Shown: positions 13,865 through 64,000 of the stretch, one piece after another
How the letters are laid out: each line of letters opens with the position of its first letter
Numbering within the stretch: the first letter of the stretch is position 1
DNA from: an uncultured Prochlorococcus sp.
Lineage (GTDB): Bacteria; Cyanobacteriota; Cyanobacteriia; PCC-6307; Cyanobiaceae
Assembly (NCBI GenBank): GCA_902525585.1
Contig: CABZHQ010000001.1
Coordinates: forward strand, 28,976-92,975
DNA length: 64,000 bases
Reading direction: 5' to 3'
Program-made: the position numbers and the translations under genes
Notes under the pieces: model-generated
Database searches by the model: none
Told to the model about the DNA's origin: nothing
The model's input: the letters and a program-made list of their open reading frames with translations, nothing else

Positions 13865-13964
13865 AAAATAAATCAGTTAAAATCTGAAGGCTTACTTGAA
13901 ATTTTCATGTGAGAATTAGGTAATTGAGAGATTGTTTTTAGCTAAGAAACAATCTCTTTTTTTT
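13865..13964 (+). ncRNA. Candidate small RNA or 3' end with strong terminator
   Basis: A 10-bp perfect stem GAGATTGTTT / AAACAATCTC (13928-13956) with a 9-base loop is followed by eight T. Upstream, TAAAAT near 13878 resembles a -10 box and no ORF lies between, so this may be an independent short transcript of about 75 nt; it may equally be just the terminator of 13617-13832. The terminator is clear, the RNA gene is inferred. Confidence 0.45.
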
Positions 13965-48187: not shown

Positions 48188-48436
48188 TTAAAAATAACTT
48201 CTAAAAATAATGGATTTCTTCCAACCTTTTTTCAATAATTCTGCATATTCTTTTCTTGCAGCTTCAATTGTTTCTACCCTGCTACCTTTCATAACTGGTT
48301 TACTACTTCTTTTATAAACGCAACCATAACTAATCATCATTGCATCAATCCTTTGCGATGGCTTGGAAACATCTTCAAATGGTTCAAAGACTTTAATTCT
48401 TGATCTTTCCTTATTTATAAGAGTAAATTTCTCCAT
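48188..48436 (-). CDS. DUF1651 protein, 82 aa
   Basis: 'MEKFTLINKERSRIKVFEPF' begins a set of strands; 'ARKEYAELLKKGWKKSIIF' is the helix-KGW ending. It is about 90% identical to 62270-62518 and related to the broken copies at 52315 and 28745. The DNA before the ATG (48453 onward) keeps 'aaaaaagaggcgacag', matching the terminator end of the RNA element copy 2. Role unknown. Confidence 0.75.
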   Translation of the reverse strand: MEKFTLINKERSRIKVFEPFEDVSKPSQRIDAMMISYGCVYKRSSKPVMKGSRVETIEAARKEYAELLKKGWKKSIIFRSYF

Positions 48437-52314: not shown

Positions 52315-52564
52315 ATGGAAAAATTTACTCTTACTAAATAAGGATAGATCGAGGATAAAAGTATTTGAACCATTTGAAGATGTATCGAAGCCTAGTCCTA
52401 GTATTGATGCAATGATGATTTCCTATGGTTGTGTTTATAAGAGAAGTAGTAAACCAGTTATGAAAGGAAACAGAGTTGAAACTATCGAAGCAGCTCGGAA
52501 GGAATACAAACAACTACTGGACGAGGGGTGGAAGAAAACAAGTATCTTCAGGAGCCATTTGTAG
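52315..52564 (+). pseudogene. Frameshifted DUF1651 gene
   Basis: Compared with 62270-62518, the reading frame starts 'MEKFTLT' and stops, but after one extra base near 52336 the other frame continues 'NKDRSRIKVFEPFEDVSKPS' to 'EGWKKTSIFRSHL'. A single insertion separates it from an intact gene, so the loss is recent. Confidence 0.8.
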
Positions 52565-53497: not shown

Positions 53498-53758
53498 TTA
53501 AACGAAACCAGGAATTATTTGGCCTGTTGTTAAGTAAGCTCCAATAGCAGCAATTAATCCAAGCATTGCGAATCTGCCATTAAGCGTTTCTGCTACAACC
53601 TTTTCTTTTTCGATTGTTTTTACTTTAGGGTTTGAATTTGTCATTGGATTTGAAGTTAGATAGTTTAAATTTTCGTCTTGAAATTGCTTTGTTAAATAAG
53701 CAACGAGGATAGCTGTTAAGGATACGATTACAGCTAAAAAGCCTGAAAGAGAAGACAT
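53498..53758 (-). CDS. hli: High-light-inducible protein, 86 aa (paralogue of 14380-14640)
   Basis: Start at ATG 53758 (TAATG with the upstream Hli gene). N-terminal helix 'FLAVIVSLTAILVAYLTKQF', linker, Hli helix 'ETLNGRFAMLGLIAAIGAYL', ending 'TTGQIIPGFV'. Nearly the same as the 14-kb copy, so a recent duplication via the mobile module. Confidence 0.87.
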   Translation of the reverse strand: MSSLSGFLAVIVSLTAILVAYLTKQFQDENLNYLTSNPMTNSNPKVKTIEKEKVVAETLNGRFAMLGLIAAIGAYLTTGQIIPGFV

Positions 53759-53967
53759 TAAAAAATACCTGGAATTATCTGACCTGTAGTTACATAAGCT
53801 CCCAAAAGTGCAACTAAACCAATCATTGCCCAACGTCCATTAACTTTTTCTGCGTTTTGAGGATATCCATCATAAGAAACAGATTGATCAACATAAGGAC
53901 GAGGCTCAGTTGGAAAAATATTTTGCCTTCCGCCTGATTCCGTAGTTATGTATGAAGAATTAGTCAT
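53758..53967 (-). CDS. hli: High-light-inducible protein, 69 aa (paralogue of 14640-14846)
   Basis: 'TTESGGRQNIFPTEPRPY' then Hli helix 'EKVNGRWAMIGLVALLGAYV', ending 'TTGQIIPGIF'. Close to the 14640 copy including the conserved 27-bp upstream block (53997-54023). First gene of the E2 minus operon. Confidence 0.9.
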   Translation of the reverse strand: MTNSSYITTESGGRQNIFPTEPRPYVDQSVSYDGYPQNAEKVNGRWAMIGLVALLGAYVTTGQIIPGIF

Positions 53968-54335: not shown

Positions 54336-54461
54336 TTTAATAAGTCCAGCTTATAGTGGGTATGAGAGTAAGTAATTATACTCACACTTGCAATTTTCAA
54401 TTATTAGATTTGTTTAAAGATTGCATTAAGAAGCGTCTTAGCTAAACAACCAACCAAACAA

Positions 54462-54596
54462 ATGAACGAAACAAAAACAGTTGAGAAGGAAAAAATCGTA
54501 GCTGAGAAGCTTAACGGTAGGTTTGCAATGATCGGCTTTATTGCCCTTATTGGTGCATATCTAACAACAGGACAAATTATTCCAGGGTTTGTATAA
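54462..54596 (+). CDS. hli: High-light-inducible protein, 44 aa
   Basis: 'EKLNGRFAMIGFIALIGAYL' and 'TTGQIIPGFV' at the end. The Hli part matches the end of the 86-aa Hli protein nearby. It abuts the 35-aa gene (TAA then ATG with no gap). Confidence 0.88.
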   Translation: MNETKTVEKEKIVAEKLNGRFAMIGFIALIGAYLTTGQIIPGFV

Positions 54597-54704
54597 ATGG
54601 ATTTTATATTTAAAAGACAAGGATATGTACCAATCAAGGTGGTTCCTTATATATTCTTTGTTGCAGTTGTTTTAAGCATCGCAACAACAACTACATTCGT
54701 ATAG
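54597..54704 (+). CDS. Small membrane protein, 35 aa
   Basis: 'MDFIFKRQGYVPIKVVPYIF' then 'FVAVVLSIATTTTFV'. It starts on the base after the Hli stop, so it is in the same operon; a terminator follows. Unknown function. Confidence 0.55.
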   Translation: MDFIFKRQGYVPIKVVPYIFFVAVVLSIATTTTFV

Positions 54705-54908: not shown

Positions 54909-54954
54909 TCGGGGCGACAGGATTCGAACCTGCGACCTAGTGCTCCCAAAGCAC
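54909..54954 (-). repeat. tRNA-Pro(TGG) 3' fragment 3
   Basis: 46 bp, identical to fragments 4 and 5. Reverse complement starts GTGCTTTGGGAGCAC (anticodon TGG in the loop), then T-arm GGTTCGAATCC and ends CCCCGA. Confidence 0.85.
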
Positions 54955-55042
54955 TTAACAACCCTAGTTGGGCACTATGTCTACAGACCATGACTAAATA
55001 GTTGCAGGTTTTTACAGGATTTGACATCACAAACTAGGGTAT

Positions 55043-55064
55043 ATTTGTTGGCGATTTGTTGGCG
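55043..55064 (+). repeat. Twin 11-bp end repeat, site g
   Basis: ATTTGTTGGCG present twice directly in tandem. 89 bp right of tRNA fragment 3; the last gene of E3 ends 14 bases later. Confidence 0.85.
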
Positions 55065-55077
55065 ATAAATATTACTT

Positions 55078-56418
55078 CTAGGAAGTAAAAAATAAAATAA
55101 AAGGTGAAACAATAGCGAAAAATATAAAACTAAAACGATAAAATTTGTCAAAAGATAGTCCGAAATATTTCTTTGAAAACCTTTCTATCCTATTTCTAGA
55201 ATCAACTATTATGAGGGCATTTGCTAATTGAAGGATAGCTAGCAAGTAACTTAAGAAATAAAGTTTATCCATATAGGTGATATAGGATAATTGAGGAATT
55301 TCACTTTGATAGCCATTTTGCATAAAGATGAAAGTAAGCAAAACTGTTGGGGGAGTAGCAACTTTAATATCTTTGAATTTATTAGATAAATTTTCGGTAA
55401 GGATCAGGACTGATACTCCTGCGATTAAAGGCAATATATATCTGAAAAAACTTGATGAGCCTGACCTTACAAAATAAGATTCTAAAACTGCAACAGGATA
55501 GTAATCTATTTTTTTAGTTGCTTCAAAAAATTCTTTCGAAATAATATTATTATCTACATCCTGATCTTGCACATTATATCCAGGCTTCAATTCATTGTAT
55601 ATGCATCCATATTCTTTATAAACTTGATCTTTTTCGTAAAAATCATCTATATAACACTGTTTATCTTGATGAATAAAAGCTTCAAATCTAAATCTATCTT
55701 CCAAAACATTTCCTGAAGCATCAAGAAAAAAATGTATTTTAGTGGCCGGTAAAAGACTTGTTAGCTCAATCCTTAATTTTGAATTGTCAAATGGAAATCT
55801 TCTCAAATCTCTATCCAATCTAAATCTTCCAGAGAATTTGTACAAAGATGTTTTTGCATCAGATGAATTATCTAAAGTAACTTTCTCATATATTTGATCT
55901 TCCGAATCATAAAAATTTAAATATAAGGAAGAAAGTACATCTTTCTTAGATTTATCTAGCAACTCTTGATCAGGCATATGCTCATCAAGAGGAACAACCC
56001 CTTCATCAGTCCATGATGCTCTTATAAATCCACTTGCATAAATACTTGAAGTTTTTTCATCAAAGTCAAATAGATTGTTAATCTTTATAGTTATGTATGT
56101 ATCATCTGGGATTTGATATTCTGAAAAATTTTCCTCTCCCTTTTCAAATTGATCTTTAAATTCATTAAAGAATTTATTTCTATAGTTACTGACTTTTTGT
56201 TTTAGTAGCCCATCTTCATAAAAGTTTAGAGTTTCTATAGATCTGGAATATTCACTCTGGGTTATAGGTATTGTTGATTGTTGAACATATTCGTTAATAC
56301 TAAAAAAAGTGGTTAAACCAAAAATAAAAAATATAAATAGAGTTAGAGTAAGAGAAATACCAAAAATCTTTTTTTGTTGATTTAACTTTTTAAAAATATT
56401 CTTTTTAACTTTTTTCAT
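55078..56418 (-). CDS. Pentameric ligand-gated ion channel-like protein (Cys-loop superfamily), 446 aa
   Basis: Layout of a prokaryotic pLGIC. After an N-terminal membrane segment (about 18-40) comes an extracellular beta domain of about 270 residues, with 'YASGFIRASWTDEGVVPLDE' (loop A-like W-x-D) and 'LRRFPFDNSKLRIEL', the FPFD of the Cys-loop position (208-211). Four helices follow: M1 about 323-341, M2 355-368, M3 378-405 ('SYITYMDKLYFLSYL') and M4 427-444. No Cys pair, as in other bacterial forms. It would gate ions in response to a ligand. It lies 6 bases downstream of the PrsW-like gene. The extra N-terminal helix is unusual; ligand unknown. Confidence 0.7.
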   Translation of the reverse strand: MKKVKKNIFKKLNQQKKIFGISLTLTLFIFFIFGLTTFFSINEYVQQSTIPITQSEYSRSIETLNFYEDGLLKQKVSNYRNKFFNEFKDQFEKGEENFSEYQIPDDTYITIKINNLFDFDEKTSSIYASGFIRASWTDEGVVPLDEHMPDQELLDKSKKDVLSSLYLNFYDSEDQIYEKVTLDNSSDAKTSLYKFSGRFRLDRDLRRFPFDNSKLRIELTSLLPATKIHFFLDASGNVLEDRFRFEAFIHQDKQCYIDDFYEKDQVYKEYGCIYNELKPGYNVQDQDVDNNIISKEFFEATKKIDYYPVAVLESYFVRSGSSSFFRYILPLIAGVSVLILTENLSNKFKDIKVATPPTVLLTFIFMQNGYQSEIPQLSYITYMDKLYFLSYLLAILQLANALIIVDSRNRIERFSKKYFGLSFDKFYRFSFIFFAIVSPFILFFTS

Positions 56419-56424
56419 ATATGT

Positions 56425-57459
56425 TTATGTAGAGACATTAGATATCAAATTAATTGCATTAGATAGGATAATCTTTCTCTCTTTTTTTTCGTAGTTGATA
56501 TATTCATCTGAATAGGACAAAGCGTATTTTGAAAAAGAATTAAATATATCTCTGCTAACTGGAGAGGTTTTATGAAGCTTAAAAAGTCTCCAACTCCATT
56601 TATATCTTGCTAGGAGGTGATAAATAGGATTAGATAGTACCTTCAAAGTTTGTAATTGAGGTTTTTCTAACAAATTTTGATCATGAATTTCAAATATAAA
56701 AAAATTTAAATAATTTATATCTCTTATGACTGAGAAACCAATTAAAGTTATAAATAGAGCAATGGATAAAGCTCTAGTTATTGCATATGAAATATTTCCT
56801 AAATAATTAATAGCTGCAATACTATTTGAAGATTCGAAGGAAGAGAATACACTTGAAAGATTGTTGAAAAAATGTAATCCAATAGCGATTAAAACAAAAA
56901 AGAGAAAATTAAGTTTGATTTTGGTTGACTTTTTGTAGAACCATAATCCAACGCCAGACCAAGCAGTGAAAAGTGCATGCATATAACCACTTTCAATAAC
57001 TCTTCCAGTTAGCTGCATGTTCCAATAATAAGTAATGTCATTCTCATAGCCTAATGTTCCCCATAAATAAATAATATTTTCAATAAATTGAAAACCTGCT
57101 GCAACTAAACAGCTATAAACAACGAAATCTGTTAATGAATGAAATTCTTTCTTGAAAGTTTTAAAAACAAAAAACAATCCTATAAATTTATAAATTTCTT
57201 CTTTTATTGGAGCGTCAATAATTGTCCCAAAAACTTCATTTAAATTCGGGTCGAGATCTAAAGTATTAATAATATAGTTCCCTATCGAAAAAGGAAAAAT
57301 TAATATTGCTATGGCTGAAGCAATTCCCCAAGCAAATGCTGCGATAATTGGTTTTAGTGGCTCCCTTTCAATTGCATCAAGAAAACGTATGGAGTAAATA
57401 ATTGAAAGACTGCTTAAAGTTGCAAATATTGGACTTGCTAAAAATATAAATAATTCCAT
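56425..57459 (-). CDS. PrsW-family intramembrane metalloprotease
   Basis: 344 residues, about eight helices. Metal-site motifs are visible: 'APIKEEIYKF' (Glu87-Glu88-x-x-Lys91), 'GFQFIENIIYLW' (Glu127), His161 in 'YMHALFTAWSG' and His196 in 'GLHFFNN'. PrsW proteases cut membrane-anchored regulators such as anti-sigma factors. Here it is upstream of the channel-like gene with 6 bases between them, so it may process or regulate the channel. The C-terminal 100 residues are a soluble extension. Confidence 0.82.
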   Translation of the reverse strand: MELFIFLASPIFATLSSLSIIYSIRFLDAIEREPLKPIIAAFAWGIASAIAILIFPFSIGNYIINTLDLDPNLNEVFGTIIDAPIKEEIYKFIGLFFVFKTFKKEFHSLTDFVVYSCLVAAGFQFIENIIYLWGTLGYENDITYYWNMQLTGRVIESGYMHALFTAWSGVGLWFYKKSTKIKLNFLFFVLIAIGLHFFNNLSSVFSSFESSNSIAAINYLGNISYAITRALSIALFITLIGFSVIRDINYLNFFIFEIHDQNLLEKPQLQTLKVLSNPIYHLLARYKWSWRLFKLHKTSPVSRDIFNSFSKYALSYSDEYINYEKKERKIILSNAINLISNVST

Positions 57460-57557
57460 TAATTCAAAATATTTTCTAAATTAATAAACCTAAATATGGG
57501 TTTCTGCAATTGTTTGTTTGCTGGCCAATATTTATTTAAGGATTATTTTTAATGCTT

Positions 57558-57872
57558 CTACTCTGATACTTCTATTTTGAGTGCTTTGATTTTTAAATCT
57601 CCATAATTTTTTGCTTTAACAATTCCGGCTTTTGCCAAAAAAGGAGTTGCAATGAAGGCAAAAGGAGTAGCCTTTTCCTCAGGAGTAAACAAGCCAATTA
57701 TAAAAGCTCCGAAAAATACAAATAAAGCAGGAGTAATTGTTCTTCTTGAGGCAGCATAGTAAATCCATACAAAAGGGATAATATGAGCTACTGCATAACC
57801 CCAGCCTTTATCTTTTTGTCTGACTTCCCATGATTCCTCTTTACTTATTAAATTTGGTTTAGGAATTACCAT
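57558..57872 (-). CDS. Hypothetical membrane protein, 104 aa
   Basis: N-terminal polar part ('EESWEVRQKDKGWGYAVAH'), then 'IIPFVWIYYAASRRTITPAL' and 'FVFFGAFIIGLF', and a second hydrophobic region. Two or three helices. First gene of E3; 98 bases before the protease gene. Function unknown. Confidence 0.55.
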   Translation of the reverse strand: MVIPKPNLISKEESWEVRQKDKGWGYAVAHIIPFVWIYYAASRRTITPALFVFFGAFIIGLFTPEEKATPFAFIATPFLAKAGIVKAKNYGDLKIKALKIEVSE

Positions 57873-57914
57873 ACTAAAATTGAATAAATTTTTTGTAAGT
57901 TTAACTTAAACATA

Positions 57915-57936
57915 ATTTGTTGGCTATTTGTTGGCT
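57915..57936 (+). repeat. Twin 11-bp end repeat, site h
   Basis: ATTTGTTGGCT twice in tandem; differs from site g only in the last base of each unit. Left of tRNA fragment 4 by 75 bp. An inverted TTGGCT/AGCCAA is also formed with 57943-57949. Confidence 0.85.
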
Positions 57937-57963
57937 GCTATGAGCCAACAAGTAAAAGCAATA

Positions 57964-57988
57964 AAAAAGCGAGTCTGGGTAACTCGCT
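57964..57988 (-). terminator. tRNA-Pro terminator copy beside fragment 4
   Basis: GCGAGT / ACTCGC stem and A6 on plus (T6 on minus), 24 bp from the tRNA 3' end. Copies beside fragments 2 and 3. Confidence 0.75.
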
Positions 57989-58011
57989 AGTATGACTTGG
58001 TTTTTAAATGG

Positions 58012-58057
58012 TCGGGGCGACAGGATTCGAACCTGCGACCTAGTGCTCCCAAAGCAC
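58012..58057 (-). repeat. tRNA-Pro(TGG) 3' fragment 4
   Basis: 46 bp identical to fragments 3 and 5, no CCA encoded and no 5' half. Confidence 0.85.
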
Positions 58058-60380: not shown

Positions 60381-60426
60381 TCGGGGCGACAGGATTCGAA
60401 CCTGCGACCTAGTGCTCCCAAAGCAC
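60381..60426 (-). repeat. tRNA-Pro(TGG) 3' fragment 5
   Basis: 46 bp, identical to fragments 3 and 4. Nearest copy to the recombinase gene; module-specific sequence starts with TTCCCACCCC. Confidence 0.85.
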
Positions 60427-60514
60427 TTCCCACCCCATTGCAAGCACTAGTGTTTTGAGCTATATCTGGATTCTTGCGTGATGTTGCGTATTTTGTCAGG
60501 ACAAACTATACTGA

Positions 60515-61988: not shown

Positions 61989-62273
61989 ATGAATTGCAAT
62001 CCAATACCAGAAAGAGAAGATTGGTTCATTACTGATAGGAAACCAACTATTTGCCCCAGATGCGGTACTAAGGAAGTTAGAAAAGCTGTTCTTGGTTATC
62101 CAACCGAAGAAGATTTCCATAATGACAATATTTATTTAATTGGCTGTATTCCAGACTTTCCTATTGATAGGACTTGGGGCTGTAGGCAATGTGATGCGGG
62201 ATTCTGGAAAGATACTCCAAGAAATAAAGCTGCATTAGGTGGATTAGTTCCCCATCAATGGCCTAAAGATTAA
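61989..62273 (+). CDS. Zinc-ribbon-like small protein, 94 aa
   Basis: Start taken at ATG 61989 ('MNCNPIPEREDWFITDRKPT'); an upstream in-frame GTG at 61980 is possible. 'TICPRCGTKEVRK' and 'WGCRQCDAGFWK' give CxxC...CxxC, a zinc-ribbon, with 'NDNIYLIGCIPDFPIDRTW' between. It follows the 61-aa gene by 2 bases and converges on the DUF1651 gene, overlapping its end by 4 bases. Confidence 0.65.
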   Translation: MNCNPIPEREDWFITDRKPTICPRCGTKEVRKAVLGYPTEEDFHNDNIYLIGCIPDFPIDRTWGCRQCDAGFWKDTPRNKAALGGLVPHQWPKD

Positions 62274-62518
62274 AAATAACTTCTAAAAATACTGGTCTTT
62301 TTCCAACCTTCTTTCAATAGTTCTGCATATTCTTTTCTAGCTGCTTCAATAGTTTCTACTCTGCTACCTTTCATAACTGGTTTACTACTTCTCTTATAAA
62401 CACACCCATAGGAAATCATCATTGCGTCAATACTTGGGGAAGGCTTGGAAACATCTTCAAATGGTTCAAAGACTTTAATTCTTGACCTATCTTTATTTAT
62501 TAAAGTGAACTTCTCCAT
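62270..62518 (-). CDS. DUF1651 protein, 82 aa
   Basis: 'MEKFTLINKDRSRIKVFEPF' to 'EEGWKK' region and 'FRSYF' ending; almost the same as 48188-48436. Start at 62518 by that comparison. Upstream (62532-62550) is a G-rich/C-rich hairpin next to T7 on the minus strand, like the RNA-element terminator. It is the only minus gene in E5. Confidence 0.75.
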   Translation of the reverse strand: MEKFTLINKDRSRIKVFEPFEDVSKPSPSIDAMMISYGCVYKRSSKPVMKGSRVETIEAARKEYAELLKEGWKKTSIFRSYF

Positions 62519-62674
62519 AAAAAAATTATAGACAAAAAAAGAGGGGTAAAGCTGCACCAAAACCCCCTAAGTAAACACACCTTAAATTAATGGCAGACTA
62601 AGAAGTGACCACACTTTTATGATAGCTTAAATATTATTTTTGTAGTATAATTTCTAATAATTAAGTATTAATTA

Positions 62675-62806
62675 GTGGCTTATTTTAAACCAACTAAATA
62701 TAAACAATTTAACGAAGTTTATCAAGTCAAAGCCTGCAATAATGGGCAAACTTTTAATACCTTAACTAACCCACAAGCTAGAAGACTATTAAAGGAGGTT
62801 TCTTAA
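62675..62806 (+). CDS. Small basic protein, 43 aa (GTG start)
   Basis: GTG 62675: 'AYFKPTKYKQFNEVYQVKAC' then 'TFNTLTNPQARRLLKEVS'. Its TAA shares a base with the next ATG (TAATG), and the AGGAGG ribosome site of the next gene lies inside it. Looks like a small DNA- or protein-binding factor; no family. Confidence 0.5.
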   Translation: MAYFKPTKYKQFNEVYQVKACNNGQTFNTLTNPQARRLLKEVS

Positions 62807-63204
62807 TGTCTAATTTAGATGACTTAATTGATAAAACCCACTTCGATTATGAACAAAACGAGACAAAAGCCAAGCAATTAGAAGACCGAATTTTGAAAGT
62901 GCCTGGAATGTCAAAAGATTTTCTTCCTAAGAGGAAATATGGGCAACAATTCAAAGGAGACCAACTAGGGGTAACAGCCCAATCAATGATAGTTAGAGGG
63001 GACAAAGCACTAGCAGCCTTTTTGGGTCTGGACTTAAATTACTGGAAGGAAAAAGCTCGAATTGAAGAAGAGCGTGAAGCCTACTTATCCGCCTTCAAAG
63101 AAAAGACAGAAGCATTAAGACTAAAGAATGAAGAAAATAAATTAGCTAGAGAAAGAAGAATGATATGGAATCAAACTCATGGTGTAGATCAAAGGAGACT
63201 TTAA
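62806..63204 (+). CDS. Hypothetical protein, 132 aa
   Basis: Preceded by AGGAGG 6 bases before the ATG. Helical and charged: 'YEQNETKAKQLEDRILKVPG', then 'ALAAFLGLDLNYWKEKARIE' and a coiled-coil C-terminal part ('KTEALRLKNEENKLARERRM'). No family recognised. Confidence 0.6.
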   Translation: MSNLDDLIDKTHFDYEQNETKAKQLEDRILKVPGMSKDFLPKRKYGQQFKGDQLGVTAQSMIVRGDKALAAFLGLDLNYWKEKARIEEEREAYLSAFKEKTEALRLKNEENKLARERRMIWNQTHGVDQRRL

Positions 63205-63206
63205 TA

Positions 63207-63545
63207 ATGCGTTTTGCTCGTCAGCACCCTTTTTATGGTTGGCTATTTTTAGAGCCACAAGATTACAGGAGGATTTATAACCAACTTATCCAAATGAGAG
63301 ATGCAGACCTAAAGAAGGGGGACAACTCCTCAGGGTTTCCCTCTGGTTTTGCTCTTTGGTGTGAAGATGATTTAAAAGAACTAGCCAAGCAAGATAGATA
63401 TAAGAAAAGGATTGCAGAACATTTGGCTCAATTAAAAATATCTATTGAAGTTAGAGAACGAGAATTAGCCAATACCTACTTAGCTGAGGAACTCCAGAAG
63501 ATGAAAGATAAGCAAGAACTAATAGAAAGTTTTATTAGCACTTAA
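63207..63545 (+). CDS. Hypothetical protein, 112 aa
   Basis: Start set at ATG 63207 ('MRFARQHPFYGWLFLEPQDY') with AGGAGA 11 bases upstream; the longer frame runs into the previous gene. Then 'SGFPSGFALWCEDDLKELAK' and a coiled coil to the end. Two bases after the previous stop. Function unknown. Confidence 0.6.
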   Translation: MRFARQHPFYGWLFLEPQDYRRIYNQLIQMRDADLKKGDNSSGFPSGFALWCEDDLKELAKQDRYKKRIAEHLAQLKISIEVRERELANTYLAEELQKMKDKQELIESFIST

Positions 63546-63586
63546 TGATTACAGCTAAACCAACTATTTCTAAGGAGGTTAACGCA

Positions 63587-63742
63587 ATGGCAGAAGCTCT
63601 AAATACTATTGCCCAAAATGACTTTATTGATTCAGCTACTCCATTAACCATCTCACTCTTTGCAACTAGCTTGGTTTGGACTTATAGAGATATTTGGGTT
63701 AATTACCTTTGGGAAGCTGAAGACAAATTGGAGGTTAATTAA
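63587..63742 (+). CDS. Small membrane-like protein, 51 aa
   Basis: Start decided by the AAGGAGG site at 63572-63578, 8 bases before ATG 63587 ('MAEALNTIAQNDFIDSATPL'). An upstream ATG at 63545, sharing a base with the previous stop, would add 14 residues. 'TISLFATSLVWTYRDIWVNY' is hydrophobic. Shares one base with the next ATG. Confidence 0.55.
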   Translation: MAEALNTIAQNDFIDSATPLTISLFATSLVWTYRDIWVNYLWEAEDKLEVN

Positions 63743-64000
63743 TGGCTGTTGTTAGTAGAAATGAAAGGAAAAAGCGTAGATGTGATGCACTCGCAAGATT
63801 AACTTCTGGCATGGGGGTGTCCCAAGTAACTGAAAGCCTAGTCAGGGACTACAAAATTACTAGAAGAAGTGCAAATCTGGACATCAACTGGGCAAGTACT
63901 CAAATAGTAAAGAACCTCGAAAAGCATGAAAAAAGAGACTTATTGGCTTGGCTTCTGACCCAGAGTGAACGTACTTTTCAGAGAGCCTTTGAAGCGGGTC
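63742..64000 (+). CDS. Partial protein with HTH-like N-terminus, possibly small-terminase-like (cut by window edge)
   Basis: ATG 63742 with GGAGG 8 bases upstream, 86 codons seen. Basic start 'MAVVSRNERKKRRCDALARL', then 'TSGMGVSQVTESLVRDYKIT' and 'RRSANLDINWASTQIV', which look like a helix-turn-helix with a recognition helix as in phage small terminases and DUF-type packaging proteins. Satellites often carry terS genes. Both ideas are inference until the full gene is seen. Confidence 0.45.
   Translation, partial: MAVVSRNERKKRRCDALARLTSGMGVSQVTESLVRDYKITRRSANLDINWASTQIVKNLEKHEKRDLLAWLLTQSERTFQRAFEAG

Follow-up and report, generated by a model that had tools for sequence, protein, structure and literature searches.

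What does a gene for a ligand-gated channel do beside a gene for an intramembrane protease on a mobile segment of a marine Prochlorococcus genome? Bacterial channels of the pLGIC type are relatives of the nicotinic, GABA and glycine receptors, and to our knowledge neither their natural role nor their regulation is known. The locus considered here lies in a 64,000-nucleotide stretch of DNA (the window) from an uncultured member of the genus; the window forms the end of contig C1, in a genome of 1.3 Mb and 76% completeness. Its closest relatives, and island genes nearly identical to its own, bear the name Prochlorococcus. According to the explanation that we favour, with about even confidence, it encodes a mobile sensory channel, probably cation-selective, with a dedicated regulatory partner of PrsW fold and often a small membrane protein.

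Gene module between tRNA-Pro remnants

The three genes are read from the minus strand in the order small membrane protein, PrsW, pLGIC and are predicted to form a single operon (Table 1). The interval 54909–58057 that holds them extends exactly from one 3′ remnant of tRNA-Pro(TGG) to the next. These bordering remnants are 107-nt repeats, 85% alike, in which the tRNA part of 46 nt is identical. The mobile module proposed in the sequence-only reading has tRNA remnants as its borders, and the six-base distance between its two main genes was confirmed.

Table 1. Location of the module genes and of island landmarks in the window
Feature	Position	Strand	Basis
Small membrane protein, 104 aa	57558..57872	-	one strong hydrophobic segment
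PrsW-family intramembrane protease, 344 aa	56425..57459	-	Pfam, motif check
Six-base spacer, PrsW stop to pLGIC start	56419..56424	-	ORF coordinates
pLGIC gene, 446 aa	55078..56418	-	profile, fold and alignment evidence
tRNA-Pro(TGG) 3′ remnant, left border of module	54909..54954	-	repeat comparison
tRNA-Pro 3′ remnant, right border of module	58012..58057	-	repeat comparison
tRNA-Pro 3′ remnant, border of preceding cargo segment	52687..52732	-	
tRNA-Pro remnant beside recombinase	60381..60437	-	Rfam tRNA 32.3 bits
Tyrosine recombinase, 420 aa	60542..61804	+	PF00589, PHROG, L121 comparison

Four tRNA remnants and a tyrosine recombinase are present in the island. The recombinase gave E 0.002 with PF00589, which is below the cutoff, 2.4e-5 with a PHROG integrase, and matched (22%, 2.7e-17) the recombinase that adjoins an intact tRNA-Pro at another locus, L121; it is probably the integrase of the island. 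Intact tRNA-Pro(TGG) adjoins related cargo both there and at L101. Tycheposons of Prochlorococcus, as described in papers that cite Hackl et al. (Cell 2023), share with this island tRNA-bordered cargo and a tyrosine recombinase; the window differs in having no intact tRNA, and the contig stops at the window edge, so that only part of the element ends is in view. An excised form was not observed. We assign the channel/PrsW stretch to a two-to-three-gene cargo module on a tycheposon-like integrative element, with moderate confidence in the explanation as a whole.

PrsW genes at three other loci (L119, L120 and L121) likewise stand among tRNA-Pro remnants, and PrsW is a recurrent cargo of tRNA-Pro islands. 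Other cargo includes small proteins of high-light-inducible type (53498–53967 and 54460–54597), enclosed by the tRNA-Pro remnant pair that precedes that of the module, and three island copies (48188–48436, 52331–52563 and 62270–62560) of a small gene of no assigned function (MEKFTLINK...VFEPFEDVSKPS), one of them in inverse orientation, which gives rise to a 233-nt inverted repeat (83%). Small same-strand genes that look phage- or satellite-like by eye occupy positions 62806–63999, from past the recombinase to the contig end. Known RNAs of the window are Yfr19 (at 13890), a glutamine-II riboswitch (24417) and Yfr13 (47776).

Identity of the channel and of the protease

The channel protein consists of an N-terminal hydrophobic segment (residues 18–36), a helical linker, a beta-sandwich of ligand-binding type (approximately 104–318) and the helices M1–M4 (320–445). 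The FPFD loop, the loop-A-like W-x-D and the four C-terminal helices recognised in the sequence-only reading are all present, the first as the Pro-loop at 208–211, the second as W136-T-D138 and the helices at 320–341, 346–371, 382–405 and 423–445 of an AlphaFold model built from 50 relatives (pLDDT 79, pTM 0.72). Taken alone, the sequence reached 14.5 bits with the neurotransmitter-gated channel domain PF02931, below the cutoff of 26, and matched PDB entries weakly (phmmer, E 0.002). A profile of the window channel and three cyanobacterial relatives matched ELIC chimeras across 300 residues with 3e-19, and a profile of Prochlorococcus channels only matched sTeLIC with 1.4e-5. The predicted fold was indeed the expected one, a beta-sandwich with four helices, and its best 50 matches among PDB folds were all pLGICs (sTeLIC, ELIC, glycine and GABAA receptors; best E 3e-16). 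The Pro-loop proline, the loop aspartate and a basic residue before M1 serve as superfamily criteria (PMC4795631, PMC549065); the corresponding P209, D211 and R318 are invariant in the four close channels known to us, and P209 in a wider set of 50. Judging by alignment and model, the protein is a genuine pLGIC.

Pore residues of M2, numbered by profile alignment to the GABAA receptor M2, are D(−2′), A(2′), T(6′), L(9′), F(13′) and N(16′). The acidic residue at −2′ and the absence of the Pro-Ala pair of anion channels suggest selectivity for cations. Presumably the channel assembles as a homopentamer and resides in the cytoplasmic membrane; its N-terminal hydrophobic segment may serve either as an anchor or as a signal peptide that is removed. 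The same segment was considered as a cleavage site of PrsW and not adopted; by eye, a signal peptidase site also fits three of the four copies. With sTeLIC, ELIC and GLIC (PDB 6fl9/9ex6, 2vl0 and 3eam) the window channel shares the fold, Pro-loop, pre-M1 arginine, four helices, leucine at 9′ and acidic −2′ at approximately 15% identity. Unlike them, it has the long N-terminal hydrophobic segment with a helical linker of about 55 aa, invariant cysteines C255 and C272, a helical insert ahead of the last strand and a PrsW partner.

In Bacillus subtilis, PrsW carries out the site-1 cleavage of RsiW, an anti-sigma factor. The window protein resembles it in matching PF13367 well over the cutoff (100.7 bits against 23.5; 9.7e-29) and in carrying EExxK, FxxxEN and two histidines, here EEIYK at 87–91 (E87, E88, K91), FQFIEN at 123–128 (E127), H161 and H196. 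The metal motifs reported earlier as intact are, therefore, in place, and by these motifs the protein is an intact PrsW-family protease. It differs from the Bacillus enzyme in scoring far below the cutoff of the NCBIfam PrsW equivalog (32 bits against 225), in the lack of an anti-sigma factor at the locus and in an additional C-terminal extension of about 80 aa, which is found only in channel-linked PrsWs and is absent from other Prochlorococcus PrsWs. The structure model of PrsW, derived from a two-sequence alignment (pLDDT 44), was not used.

Recurrence of the pair in the genus

Scanning of 84,980 species revealed two close channels, in AG-402-K21 (locus L008, 46%) and AG-436-C13 (L009, 40%), and many distant ones. 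Among 266 genomes of the genus a close channel was found in three: the window genome, AG-402-K21 (G306) and G340. PrsW was registered in eight of the 266, including all three with the channel (hypergeometric P 1.8e-5), and in these three genomes it lies directly upstream of the channel, even though the channels are just 38–47% alike. Thus, the search for the same pair in other genomes was successful; channel and PrsW are a conserved gene pair, and their products probably act jointly. In G340 an intact PrsW is followed 136 bases downstream by the channel, while the small protein, 72% identical to that of the window over the match, is convergent to the channel. In this genome the small protein has changed place and orientation, yet the three genes still lie side by side, so their linkage survived rearrangement. 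Against the pairing speaks the fourth close channel, in AG-436-C13, which has no adjoining PrsW; the only PrsW of that genome, 528 aa long and of other build, is encoded on another contig. A trypsin-like serine protease adjoins the channel both at L008 (7479–8777) and at L009 (1–1878), TPR-bearing in the latter.

The small membrane protein noted in the first reading accompanies the pair in one further genome, the same G340, and is itself more widespread: 19 of 265 genus genomes encode a homologue, and in most of them PrsW and channel are absent. It shares a genome with PrsW in five cases (P 5e-5) and adjoins it in four (the window, G340, G231 and G304), of which the last two are channel-free and have a zinc ribbon at the N-termini of both proteins. 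It may be, therefore, that these two genes constitute an older unit of their own. One can go further and assume that the function resides in PrsW and the small protein, as a proteolytic switch of the envelope, in which case the channel would be a separate gene hitch-hiking in a few islands. The data just listed speak for such an arrangement. It is nevertheless rather unlikely, because none of the channel genomes among the 266 is without PrsW, because PrsW stands directly upstream in three divergent copies and because in AG-402-K21 the channel pair and an intact PrsW occur without the small protein. At loci L118 (5727–7558) and L119 (5754–7412) PrsW lies beside the small protein with no channel and with zinc ribbons at both N-termini, and at L122 (4857–6032) the small protein is lengthened to 391 aa by a repeat-rich, TPR-like C-terminal region. 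The latter is the chromosomal site at which G340 holds the three-gene module.

Dead homologue and probable deletion scar in AG-402-K21

The AG-402-K21 genome supplied two further observations on the preferred reading, the channel with a dedicated partner. Its channel is preceded, at a distance of 21 bases, by a 338-aa homologue of PrsW (phmmer 8.7e-8) that has no EExxK and not a single histidine, while its frame is still open. By the loss of these motifs the homologue should be catalytically dead, and its persistence beside the channel argues that catalysis is not the sole reason for the genes staying together. This suggests either a binding role besides cleavage or decay, and the copy may simply be decaying.

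The second observation concerns another island of the same genome, where an orphan intact PrsW (97% DNA identity to that of the window) lies beside an intact tRNA-Pro and among flanking genes in common with the window. Here the tRNA remnant is joined directly to four codons from the start of the channel gene (ATGAAAAAAGTT), after which PrsW follows. Since these four codons remain, the channel was most likely once present and then deleted. The orphan differs from the window PrsW by 19 synonymous and 11 replacement codon changes, which corresponds to a rough omega of ~0.2 if three quarters of sites are taken as replacement sites; the genome that shows this value retains a channel at another locus.

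At this point one has to weigh whether unrelated cargo genes came to adjoin by chance in an array of tRNA remnants. Islands at tRNA-Pro do shuffle their cargo, other PrsWs travel without channels, and the AG-402-K21 counterpart of the window island now contains PrsW with neither channel nor small protein. However, the scar implies that the pair was there earlier, and both the direct PrsW-channel order in three divergent copies and the co-occurrence value given above are at odds with accident, so that we regard chance as quite improbable.

Distant relatives and the question of defence

The sequence-only reading considered a channel of this kind unexpected in a streamlined picocyanobacterium. 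This holds for the genus, in which it is rare (3/266), and fails for the family, where a related pLGIC is found in 119 of 400 sampled genomes and 18 of 59 genera, commonly in Synechococcus/Cyanobium; a survey of 2016 had already named Prochlorococcus among the holders of pLGICs (PMC4795631). All four Prochlorococcus channels group in a single clade (100/100), the stem of which measures 2.46 changes per site, and this long branch sets them apart; the place of the clade among other pLGICs is unsure in view of the tree tool's warnings of long-branch effects and unusual composition. The nearest larger relatives found, in Synechococcus (e.g. WH7803, L066), Cyanobium, Myxococcota and Halieaceae, share with the window channel the conserved M2 (AxPxTxLLT) and M2-M3 loop, and also tend to two-gene units. 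Their partner is a soluble binding protein: at 23 distant loci, including Synechococcus WH7803, a Peripla_BP_5/6 gene lies directly beside the channel, often with a 4-base overlap. The partner of the window channel, in contrast, is a membrane protease, and phmmer and local HMM searches for an adjoining PrsW had AG-402-K21 as the sole match and gave none at the distant pLGIC loci. In Synechococcus, Myxococcota, Halieaceae and Verrucomicrobia the Peripla_BP_5/6 gene stands before or after the pLGIC as a recurrent unit (L066 5212–7643 and 22 others). A paper of 2004 described pLGICs joined with periplasmic binding proteins and Cache domains, in operons and as fusions, and proposed a role in chemoreception (PMC549065).

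This surrounding bears on the other function offered initially, defence or abortive infection, in which PrsW would sense infection or envelope damage and unlock the channel, thereby depolarising the cell. Pore and protease together do recall how certain defence systems that act on membranes are built, and the module sits on a mobile island. Yet a PADLOC search with seven proteins returned no match at E 0.1, and no defence gene was recognised in the neighbourhoods examined, where island neighbours were genes of high-light-inducible type and genes of no assigned function. The nearest relatives adjoin periplasmic binding proteins, i.e. small-molecule sensing, and a proteolytic trigger is hard to reconcile with the dead PrsW that adjoins one of the channels. 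In translated searches of phage records the channel was unmatched and PrsW had one weak match; IMG/VR, scanned with the channel protein and with its profile, contained no relatives, and the fold search in viral structures returned two giant-virus pLGICs only. Nothing found points to defence, and this part of the sequence-only reading received no support; we consider it highly improbable.

Proposed working and meaning

In the reading we prefer, the extracytoplasmic beta-sandwich would sense a small molecule or ion, upon which a cation conductance opens. The PrsW-fold partner would bind the channel in the membrane and set its amount or activity; where the active site is intact, PrsW may act proteolytically, on the channel or on the small protein, while in AG-402-K21 the homologue would act through binding alone. 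The pentamer with its conductance and selectivity, the ligand, the physical contact and the cleavage target are what we infer from the features described above. Partners of pLGICs described earlier are ligand-binding domains or proteins (PBP, Cache; PMC549065), and a literature search for a pLGIC joined with PrsW found nothing. We tentatively suggest, as a possibility that is less than even, a new type of regulated channel, namely a pLGIC that has an intramembrane protease or its dead derivative as a dedicated accessory subunit.

If this is true, gating or abundance of the channel would be set by regulated intramembrane proteolysis, and such a channel would spread as mobile cargo among streamlined ocean cyanobacteria. 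The compact recurrent pair provides a testable partner protein for a bacterial pLGIC, and active and catalytically dead PrsW beside the channel offer a natural comparison. A streamlined ocean phototroph is seen here to carry ion channels among its mobile cargo.
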